Below, one piece after another: positions 12,458 to 15,315 of a stretch of 36,325 bases of DNA (positions within the stretch are counted from its first letter, which is position 1; each line of letters opens with the position of its first letter). The translations under genes and the position numbers were made by a program. Under the pieces are notes generated by a model. It ran no database searches and was not told the DNA's origin. It saw nothing but the letters and a program-made list of their open reading frames with translations. The stretch is from Candidatus Faecicola pullistercoris (GTDB lineage Bacteria; Bacillota; Clostridia; Christensenellales; CAG-917). The DNA is taken from assembly GCA_018714105.1 (NCBI GenBank), contig DVNW01000021.1, positions 127,900 to 164,224 on the forward strand. The letters are read 5' to 3'.

Positions 12458-13675
12458 TTATTGTTTGAAGGTAATTGTGAAGCAAGTAAAAGTAGCTCCG
12501 TCGCTTTCGACCTTGATGCTTCCGCCGAGGTTTTCGGTTATGGATTTTGCGATGGACAGTCCGAGGCCGAAGCTGGTTTCGTTGTTCTTTCCGCTGTGAG
12601 ATTTGTCCGCACGGTAGAACCTTTCAAAAACCTTGTCAAGCATATCGCTGCTTATTCCGCCGCCGCTGTTGCTGACTTTAAGAACAACGCTTTTTTTATG
12701 CTTTTCGAGCAAAACCGATATTTTACCGTTTTTATTCGTGTATTTAAATGCGTTATCAAGCAAAATGTATACTAATTTTTCAAACAGGTAAGAGTCGGTT
12801 GTAAGAGTTATGTCGGGTTGAATGTGGTCTTCCAGCCTGACGCTTTTTTCAAACATGGCGGCTTCGTACCCGAGCAGGATTCCGCTTATGCTGCGGCTTA
12901 CGTTTACTTCGGATTTGTTTATTACGGGGCTGTTGTCAAGACGGGCCAATTCCAGCATTTCGCAAATCAGTTTGTTCATTCTGACGGTCTGGTATTCGAT
13001 ATTGCCGAGAAAACGCTTATCCTGTTCCGAAAACGACGAGGTGTCCAGAGCGGCGATATTCGTATCTATTACCGTTATGGGAGTTTTAAGTTCGTGCGAG
13101 GCGTTAGTGATAAGTTCGTTCTGTTTCTGCCACGCGTTTTCGGTAGGAGATACGATATGATCCGAAATAAGGACCGCCGCTATTATCACCAGAACGTAGG
13201 ATATTATAAGCGACAGGACCATCGTAAACGAAAATGTATTAATGGTGCCGTGATATACGGTTGCGTTGAAAACGGCTATGCGGGTAATACCGTCCGCGTA
13301 ATCGTTCGCTCTTTTAAAATAAAGCACGCTTTCGCCCAAATCGAAATTACCCTTGGATTTGTTGCCGGTAACGCTTTGGATTATGACGTCGATTTCATCT
13401 TCGGAAAAATTTTCCATTCCTTTAAGATTGTAATTGCCGTCCGAGGTAATTTCTATCAGAAAGCAATACCCCTGTATTTTGTCGTTTGGAATGGCGGCGG
13501 CAGAATCGGGAAGCCTTTGTCCCTCGCCGCTCAGCGCAACGGTCAGTATCATATCTATAGCCCTCATCGCGTTGGAATAGTTGACGATATACAGTGCTGC
13601 AAACAACACCGTACAAATCGCCACGCCTATCATCGACAGGGTTAATATGAGACGTTTTCTCAGCTTTTTGAACAT
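12458..13675 (-). CDS. Sensor histidine kinase
   Basis: This 405-residue protein has two membrane segments (about residues 9-31 and 149-171) enclosing an extracytoplasmic sensor region of about 115 residues with no family I recognise. HisKA follows with NASHELKTPITVI and the phosphoacceptor His194. The ATPase domain has the N box (LLDNAFKYT), SNSGGGISSDMLDKVFERFY and a GLGLSIAKSI G2 box. No obvious HAMP domain separates TM2 from the dimerisation helix. It overlaps the response-regulator gene by 16 bases, so the two form one operon with the regulator first. The signal is unknown; neighbours do not settle it. Confidence 0.95.
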   Translation of the reverse strand: MFKKLRKRLILTLSMIGVAICTVLFAALYIVNYSNAMRAIDMILTVALSGEGQRLPDSAAAIPNDKIQGYCFLIEITSDGNYNLKGMENFSEDEIDVIIQSVTGNKSKGNFDLGESVLYFKRANDYADGITRIAVFNATVYHGTINTFSFTMVLSLIISYVLVIIAAVLISDHIVSPTENAWQKQNELITNASHELKTPITVIDTNIAALDTSSFSEQDKRFLGNIEYQTVRMNKLICEMLELARLDNSPVINKSEVNVSRSISGILLGYEAAMFEKSVRLEDHIQPDITLTTDSYLFEKLVYILLDNAFKYTNKNGKISVLLEKHKKSVVLKVSNSGGGISSDMLDKVFERFYRADKSHSGKNNETSFGLGLSIAKSITENLGGSIKVESDGATFTCFTITFKQ

Positions 13676-14349
13676 GCGTCCTCCAGTTGATAACCCACGC
13701 CGCGTACGGTTACGATATTTACATCGGAGCCGATATAGCTCAGTTTTTTCCGCAGGAAACTGATATATACCTCGATATTATTGGATTCGAGTTCGCTGTC
13801 AAACCCCCAGATTTTGGCTATCATATCGTCGCGGGTGGCTATAAACGAAGGCTTTTCCATTAAAAACCTTATGATTTCGAATTCCTTAACCGATACTTTT
13901 ACCGAGTTTTTGGCGGTATAAAGGCGATATCCTTTTAGGTCAAGGCTCAAATCGCCGAAGGTAAGCACGTTGTCCTGAATCAGCGTGTCGTTTTTGCGCC
14001 GGGACAGAGCACGGATTCTTGCCAGCAGTTCGGGTACGGAAAAGGGTTTGGGCAGATAGTCGTCCGCACCTAAATCCAGGCCCGTTATTTTATCGTTTAC
14101 AGTATTCAGCGCGGTAAGCATCAGGACGGGCGTTTTTATATGTTTATGCCTGAGCGCTTTGAGTACGCTGAATCCGTCCATAGTGGGAAGCATTACGTCG
14201 AGCAGGATAATATCGTAAATGCCCGTAAGCGCGAATTCGAGGCCTTCGGCTCCGTCAGCCACAATATCCACAGAGTATTTTTCTTTTTTGAATATGTTTG
14301 CCAAAGCGTCCGTCAGTTGCTTTTCGTCTTCTATCAGCAGAATTTTCAT
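13660..14349 (-). CDS. OmpR/PhoB-family response regulator
   Basis: This 229-residue protein has a receiver domain with the acidic pocket (IEDE near residue 7), phospho-acceptor Asp51 in DIILLDVMLP, Thr79 and Lys101 in YLPKPFS. A winged-helix DNA-binding domain runs from about 130 (SVKEFEIIRFLMEKP, then SNNIEVYISFLRKKL and VRGVGYQLE). It is a full-length transcription factor phosphorylated by the kinase encoded just downstream with a 16-base overlap. A GAGGTG ribosome binding site precedes the ATG. A candidate small RNA is transcribed divergently about 200 bp away. No clear direct-repeat binding site for it was found. Confidence 0.95.
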   Translation of the reverse strand: MKILLIEDEKQLTDALANIFKKEKYSVDIVADGAEGLEFALTGIYDIILLDVMLPTMDGFSVLKALRHKHIKTPVLMLTALNTVNDKITGLDLGADDYLPKPFSVPELLARIRALSRRKNDTLIQDNVLTFGDLSLDLKGYRLYTAKNSVKVSVKEFEIIRFLMEKPSFIATRDDMIAKIWGFDSELESNNIEVYISFLRKKLSYIGSDVNIVTVRGVGYQLEDACSKS

Positions 14350-14521
14350 GGCACACCTCGCGATATATTAATATAATAATACAACATCTGAGTTAAAAAA
14401 GCATTAAATACAAAAAAATTTTTGCCGCAAGCCGTTTATCTGCAAATTCGATTGAATGTAAAATAATATCGGTTAAGCGCGAAAAAGGAAATAATTGGCT
14501 GACAAATTTAAGAAAATATTG
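14350..14521. other. Intergenic region between response regulator and sRNA
   Basis: This AT-rich stretch has no ORF I would call. It must hold the response-regulator promoter on the minus strand, but no single -35/-10 pair stands out; TATTAT-like boxes lie around 14365-14380. Confidence 0.4.
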
Positions 14522-14550
14522 TTGACAACGGCAGGGCTATATGCTAAAAT
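14522..14550 (+). promoter_or_regulatory. Strong promoter for candidate sRNA
   Basis: TTGACA at 14522-14527 and TAAAAT at 14545-14550 have a 17-bp spacer, with an extended -10 TG at 14542-14543. No start codon with a ribosome binding site follows. Confidence 0.8.
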
Positions 14551-14555
14551 CTAGG

Positions 14556-14671
14556 TGTCTGAAAGATGACGTCAAGGCACACGGTGCCTGCCGCCGCAGG
14601 GCGGTCTTAAATTTGCTAATATCCTCATAATCCACTCCCCGAAACCCGCACGAATTTTTTGTGCGGGTTTC
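14556..14671 (+). ncRNA. Candidate trans-acting small RNA, about 116 nt
   Basis: A strong promoter is followed by structured, apparently noncoding sequence. A perfect palindrome TGACGTCA lies at 14567-14574. Hairpin 1 is AGGCAC/GTGCCT (14575-14589) and hairpin 2 is CCGCC/GGCGG (14591-14604). An unpaired pyrimidine-rich stretch at 14606-14640 includes CCTCATAATCCACTCCCC, which could pair with GGAG/GGGGAG ribosome binding sites. An 11-pair hairpin, GAAACCCGCAC/GTGCGGGTTTC (14641-14671), closes it; its downstream T-run is weak (CACTTT) and six T lie in the loop. Two structured domains flanking an exposed anti-Shine-Dalgarno resemble known Bacillota sRNAs in design. The alternative is a leader or attenuator of queH, 63 bases downstream. 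I recognise no named RNA family. Confidence 0.6.
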
Positions 14672-14698
14672 ACTTTGCGCGCAATTTGTTTCAATCGT

Positions 14699-14727
14699 TT
14701 GAAAATTTTATTAAACTGTGATATGCT
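14699..14727 (+). promoter_or_regulatory. Promoter giving a leaderless queH mRNA
   Basis: TTGAAA at 14699-14704 and TATGCT at 14722-14727 have a 17-bp spacer. The ATG starts six bases after the -10 box, so transcription should begin at the start codon. Confidence 0.55.
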
Positions 14728-14733
14728 TTGCTT

Positions 14734-15315
14734 ATGAATTTTTACAGTACTTTTACAAAACAGGCCGAACTTTATAAGGGTAAAAGGCTTTTGCTTCACA
14801 GTTGTTGCGCGCCTTGCAGCAGCGCGGTACTGGAATTGCTTTGCCCGATTTTCGAGGTGAGCGTTCTGTATTATAATCCTAACATATTCCCCGAGGAAGA
14901 GTATTTGCTGAGAAAAAACGAACAGATAAGATTTCTTGACGAATGCTGCAAAAGCGCGGGATTTATCGACTGCGACAGTTCGCCGTCCGATTTTTACGAC
15001 GCGGTAAAAGGTTACGAACATGAAAAAGAAGGGGGCTCGCGCTGTGAGTTATGCTTCGGTCTCCGTTTGTTGAAAACCGCGGAAACGGCAGTTCAGAAAG
15101 GATTTGACATTTTCGGTACTACGCTTACGGTAAGCCCGCATAAAAATGCCGAGGCGGTCAACGCCGCCGGATTGGCGGCGCAGGAAAAGACGGGCGCGGT
15201 CTTTCTTGTGGCGGATTTCAAGAAAAAGGACGGATACAAGAGGTCGCTCGAGCTCAGCCGGAAATTTAACCTTTACCGGCAGAATTACTGCGGATGCGAA
15301 TTTTCAAAAAAATAA
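14734..15315 (+). CDS. queH: Epoxyqueuosine reductase QueH
   Basis: This 193-residue protein is QueH (formerly DUF208). LLLHSCCAPCSS near residue 20 supplies adjacent cysteines (Cys24, Cys25, Cys28), GSRCELCFGLRL another cysteine pair, and NYCGCEFS the C-terminal ones; they bind an iron-sulfur cluster and a further iron. SVLYYNPNIFPEEEY and FGTTLTVSPHKN are also diagnostic. QueH reduces epoxyqueuosine to queuosine in tRNA, the last step of that pathway, and replaces QueG. The ATG at 14734 was chosen over an in-frame TTG at 14728 that lies directly against the promoter -10 box. No Shine-Dalgarno sequence is present upstream. No other queuosine genes are in the window. Confidence 0.92.
   Translation: MNFYSTFTKQAELYKGKRLLLHSCCAPCSSAVLELLCPIFEVSVLYYNPNIFPEEEYLLRKNEQIRFLDECCKSAGFIDCDSSPSDFYDAVKGYEHEKEGGSRCELCFGLRLLKTAETAVQKGFDIFGTTLTVSPHKNAEAVNAAGLAAQEKTGAVFLVADFKKKDGYKRSLELSRKFNLYRQNYCGCEFSKK

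Follow-up and report, generated by a model that had tools for sequence, protein, structure and literature searches.

The window, a stretch of 36,325 nucleotides (contig C18, positions 127900-164224), belongs to a genome of approximately 1.6 Mb whose genus has no second species among 43 family genomes. Within it, a gap of 384 nt separates a divergently oriented two-component pair from queH, which encodes an epoxyqueuosine reductase, and this gap contains the promoter, hairpins and open linker of a candidate small RNA (Table 1). The adjacency of queH and the response regulator was absent from the queH loci of 29 relatives and from the stretches compared at 80 distant loci. An 11-nt perfect inverted repeat, CAAATTTAAGA at 14503-14513 and TCTTAAATTTG at 14605-14615, flanks the promoter and the first two hairpins; the idea of a mobile element was rejected, given that an inverted repeat of at least 11 nt arose in 16 of 400 shuffles and that the candidate RNA region is single-copy in the genome. 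A 19-codon frame with a TTG start (LADKFKKILLTTAGLYAKI, 14495-14554, + strand, SD energy of -5.8) overlaps the small-RNA promoter and had no convincing relatives among the loci compared.

Table 1 Features of the region between the two-component genes and queH, and of its neighbours.
Feature	Position	Strand	Basis or remark
Sensor histidine kinase, partner of the OmpR-family response regulator	12458..13675	-	
Response regulator, OmpR family, divergent neighbour	13660..14349	-	
Response-regulator repeat TTTAATGCTTTTTTAAC, at its own gene's promoter, outside the RNA unit	14392..14408	-	
Sigma-70 promoter TTGACA-17-TAAAAT, extended -10 (TG)	14522..14550	+	11/12 consensus match
Predicted small RNA, about 116 nt	14557..14672	+	presumed start, 7 nt past the -10
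Hairpin 1, 6 bp	14575..14589	+	predicted fold
Hairpin 2, 6 bp, core CCGCC-GCAG-GGCGG	14590..14605	+	predicted fold
Open pyrimidine-rich linker, proposed target-pairing region	14606..14640	+	predicted fold, unpaired probability
Anti-start codon CAU	14626..14628	+	sequence, open in fold
Anti-SD CUCCCC, containing UCCCC	14635..14640	+	sequence, open in fold
Terminator-like hairpin, weak U-tail	14641..14671	+	predicted fold, terminator score
Separate queH promoter TTGAAA-17-TATGCT with TG	14699..14727	+	
queH, epoxyqueuosine reductase (PF02677)	14734..15315	+	

An initial annotation of the region had proposed the promoter with its extended -10, and this proposal held up. We counted promoter-like sites in a genome sample of 394,961 bases, composed of the window and 20 further stretches (about 24% of the genome). 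Sites matching the consensus at 11 or more of 12 positions numbered 67, of which 23 carried the TG, all 23 lying outside called ORFs. A first-order Markov model built from 50,482 noncoding bases of the sample yielded 1.4 and 0.0 such sites, respectively (10 simulations), so the promoter at 14522-14550, with 11 matches plus the TG, exceeds chance by far and can be taken as real. The same sample holds 72 strong noncoding promoters, and 6 of them are followed by a good terminator with no called gene in between. Three of these 6 units are known RNA elements (a cobalamin riboswitch, an FMN riboswitch, and tRNA-Ser), so the filter does find RNAs, although the two riboswitches are leaders and not free RNAs. 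Two more units of this kind in the same genome (L184, 19182, + strand; L195, 2315, + strand) have neither a called gene nor an Rfam match.

The predicted fold agrees with the layout described at the outset, namely two GC hairpins, an open pyrimidine-rich linker of 35 nt, and a strong final hairpin. The linker contains 24 pyrimidines, and the mean unpaired probability over 14605-14640 is 0.93. The z score of the fold is -3.5 with the terminator hairpin and only -1.4 without it, so it is the terminator that makes the fold stand out statistically. Hairpin and tail together score -18.6, beyond the 1% threshold set by intragenic controls (-12.4); the U-tail alone scores -0.89, which is weak compared with the gene terminators of the genome (median -2.65, n = 60) and consistent with the weak T-run noted earlier. 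This hairpin is terminator-like on the + strand only, and on the minus strand GGGGAG comes after it. The transcript was also said to lack a plausible ORF, and we agree: the loci compared held no convincing match for either of two frames, one of 14 codons in the sense direction within it (MTSRHTVPAAAGRS, ATG at 14566) and one of 29 codons that starts inside the promoter (ATG at 14541). The original observation of a promoter followed by a short, gene-free transcript layout with hairpins is confirmed.

The complement of the linker reads as a complete translation start, consisting of GGGGAG, 6 nt, and ATG. Its SD energy is -7.0 kcal/mol, calculated with what we take to be the anti-SD core sequence, and is stronger than that of 55% of 329 called genes. 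An equally good anti-start arrangement was present in only 44 of 4000 random 36-nt pieces of the window, but among dinucleotide-shuffled versions of the linker, which keep its own composition, the share was 10.9%. In csRNAs, open regions likewise hold an anti-SD together with an anti-AUG (PMC3091779), and RsaE, LhrC and other RNAs are described as using UCCC(C) as a seed (PMC4132741, PMC9217828). The claim that the layout is that of an sRNA masking ribosome-binding sites was partly supported: the layout fits base-pairing small RNAs known from low-GC Gram-positive bacteria, the UCCCC is present, and an anti-AUG at the right spacing adds to what the initial annotation had noted; the searches below gave no homologue and placed target pairing at chance.

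No known Rfam family had been recognized in the candidate, and comparison with Rfam bears this out: the window gave no match at the gathering score and only three sub-threshold matches at E values up to 10, none of them to RsaE/RoxS or LhrC. Identity with 6S RNA was rejected, as the candidate had no covariance-model match and the 6S RNA of the same genome lies elsewhere, on contig C22 (E = 1.5e-10, above the cut-off). When 14515-14700 was compared with 60 relatives by BLASTN (E up to 1), 47 of the 60 genomes gave matches, and all non-self matches were short; the best of them covers 23 nt (E = 0.003), and the two best sit in a coding frame just upstream of a gene that, from its protein letters, we take to be rpsL-like. 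A plasmid search with the RNA region gave no match, and an exact 18-mer search of IMG/VR returned 0. We also built a single-sequence covariance model from the candidate and ran it on genomes of the family and the order. With E values up to 1 allowed, it matched 6 of the 43 family genomes, and with E values up to 0.01, 6 of the 200 order genomes, the candidate's own genome included in both counts, and the best non-self score was 25 bits versus 164 bits for self. In the 8 non-self alignments inspected, the 5' hairpins, the linker motif and the terminator were never kept together. The fullest of these matches (L202) has partial linker similarity (CCACUCC) and a shorter hairpin 2, and we interpret it as a terminator preceded by AT-rich sequence; another match is antisense to a gene start.

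With no credible homologue found by BLASTN or by the covariance model (43 family genomes; 200 from the order), the candidate shows neither covariation nor signs of selection, and the covariance analysis of homologous regions recommended in the initial annotation had nothing to work on. This amounts to absence of evidence, because QueH is at best 53% identical to its family relatives and an intergenic RNA is not expected to align at that distance. The candidate with its complete anti-start sequence thus far appears in a single genome of a little-studied Clostridia-type lineage.

In a duplex scan of 324 gene starts, the linker pairs more strongly with starts than with coding pieces. The pairing at these 324 starts was not clearly above that of shuffled linkers, 4 of 40 of which equal it, and the best site reaches -23.5 compared with a mean best of -24.7 for the shuffled linkers. 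The start of the histidine kinase, ranked second (-23.2), was not taken as a target. Whole-genome searching for the linker complement placed GGGGAGTGGATTATG, with at most 3 mismatches, at 28 sites (self included) versus 15 for the backwards control. Among the 27 non-self sites, 11 ending in ATG were inspected and two of these resemble true starts, presumably those of a MurA-like and an AbrB-like protein; their duplexes (-22.1 and -18.7, respectively) are unremarkable, and this whole-genome search did not find a compelling start.

The neighbouring two-component system offers a comparison with the csRNAs of streptococci. Relatives of the kinase occur in 36 of 43 family genomes, its own included, and 29 of the 30 loci fetched, counting the window, have TTTAA-N6-TTTAA ahead of the response-regulator gene (L142-L170, L203-L219). 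At the response-regulator promoter, the motif takes the CiaR-like direct repeat form TTTAAT-N5-TTTAAK. TTTAAK-N5-TTTAA occurs 17 times in the genome and its backwards control 6 times. Several copies of the repeat lie exactly 10 nt ahead of a -10-like hexamer, which is the spacing described for CiaR promoters (PMC3091779). These data suggest a CiaR-type regulon in the family. A scan of 14440-14700 with the repeat matrix gave its two best scores, 4.9 and 4.0, at 14699, over the queH promoter, followed by -1.8 at 14507; for comparison, the matrix gives 18.5-27.1 for the sites of 28 relatives and 21.3 for the site of the regulator itself. As nothing similar stands around the RNA promoter, where -1.8 is the best score, control of the small RNA by the response regulator via this repeat was rejected.

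The candidate resembles the CiaR-dependent csRNAs in several respects. It is intergenic, its length falls within their size range of 51-202 nt (PMC3091779), its stem-loops surround an open stretch with complements of both the SD sequence and the start codon, and it ends in a terminator-like hairpin (with a weak tail); in addition, the adjoining regulator carries the CiaR-like repeat, 10 nt from the -10, at its own promoter. Unlike csRNAs, the candidate has a promoter with a consensus -35 and without the NTTAAG-N5-TTTAAG that precedes the -10 by 10 nt, is present in single copy, and has no Rfam match. Strictly speaking, it falls outside the csRNAs, one of the RNA types to which the initial annotation had likened it, since its promoter lacks the response-regulator repeat. 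RsaE/RoxS of Staphylococcus and Bacillus share the UCCCC motif that pairs with a G-rich SD (PMC9217828), but the candidate has one UCCCC instead of two and no Rfam match to this family at an E value of 10. LhrC of Listeria is similar in its CU-rich UCCC motif within a single-stranded stretch between hairpins (PMC4132741), but possesses three motifs, five copies and two-component control, whereas the candidate is a single-copy RNA with a single UCCCC motif, for which no two-component control was seen. A csRNA- or UCCCC-type manner of action is the most likely reading, without membership in those families. We only tentatively suggest that csRNA-like masking arose here independently of csRNA-type control, with the RNA uncoupled at its promoter from the adjoining CiaR-like system.

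What is shown here, from the promoter and the predicted fold to the terminator-like hairpin and the anti-start geometry, together with the lack of a good competing coding reading, is best accounted for by a trans-acting small RNA, about 116 nt long and restricted to its lineage. The constitutive-looking promoter would drive this stand-alone RNA and an intrinsic terminator would end it through the 3' hairpin, while the two GC hairpins would shield the 5' part and leave the linker open. The linker would then base-pair with a target mRNA at its ribosome-binding site and start codon, through the anti-SD CUCCCC and, 6 nt away, the anti-AUG, and this pairing would block 30S binding. Transcription, end point and pairing mechanism are what we infer. 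The candidate probably exists as a separate transcript; for the whole explanation, masking of ribosome-binding sites included, we consider the case evenly balanced.

The strongest competitor is a real transcript that is functionless or decaying, with a strong promoter, a terminator and mere spacer sequence between them, which is possible but clearly less likely than a masking RNA. It would fit the conservation that was not found, the ordinary fold without the terminator, and target pairing that is about at chance. It fits less well with the retention of a near-consensus promoter in so small a genome (1.6 Mb) and with the joint occurrence of an open linker, UCCCC and an anti-AUG at the proper spacing; moreover, the sampled relatives are too distant for non-conservation to tell much.

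The initial annotation had left room for a queH leader or attenuator, and the arrangement of queH bears on this. The queH promoter stops 6 nt ahead of the ATG and the gene is nearly devoid of an SD sequence, such that transcription would begin on or next to the ATG and the mRNA would be leaderless. We compared 30 family queH loci (window included; 37 family genomes had a match) with 80 more distant ones: a -10 hexamer 4-8 nt before an in-frame queH start is present in 21 of the 30 (20 of them extended) and in 10 of the 80 (3 extended). A leaderless queH mRNA therefore looks like the usual state of the family, independent of the small RNA. That transcription from 14557 instead provides a 5' leader for queH, with the hairpin as a conditional attenuator or a partial brake, is unlikely, because queH has its own conserved promoter and the 5' arm of the terminator has no antiterminator partner: its pairing of -7.9 kcal/mol is equalled by 67% of shuffles, compared with 3.7% for the cobalamin riboswitch and an equivocal 22% for the FMN riboswitch. 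The layout and the weak tail are compatible with a leader, in that the first gene downstream on this strand is queH, 183 nt beyond the -10 of the small-RNA promoter, the order of promoter, terminator and gene recurs at the cobalamin and FMN riboswitches of the genome, and the tail allows read-through. Nevertheless, no Rfam leader was found in the window or in the 20 of 30 fetched family queH loci that were scanned, and BLASTN located the RNA region in none of the queH loci of 29 relatives and none of the 80 distant loci.

A small protein gene, either the sense frame MTSRHTVPAAAGRS or a minus-strand frame MRILANLRPPCGGRHRVP (ATG at 14628), is highly improbable: the frames are short (14 and 18 codons, respectively) and the loci compared gave no convincing match to either peptide, the SD-like bases of MTSRHTVPAAAGRS precede the presumed transcription start, and MRILANLRPPCGGRHRVP, despite an SD energy of -7.4 (its SD being the + strand anti-SD by construction), is rated low because no promoter could be placed for it, the minus-strand promoter call (14575-14548) lying downstream of its start, and because it has no convincing relative.

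In summary, the CiaR-like regulon and the family-wide leaderless queH are better supported than the function of the candidate RNA, and both are directly testable. If expressed, the RNA would provide a candidate for ribosome-site masking by a small RNA in a lineage on which a limited literature search found no relevant paper, and it would show the reach of the UCCCC/anti-start solution beyond Bacilli.
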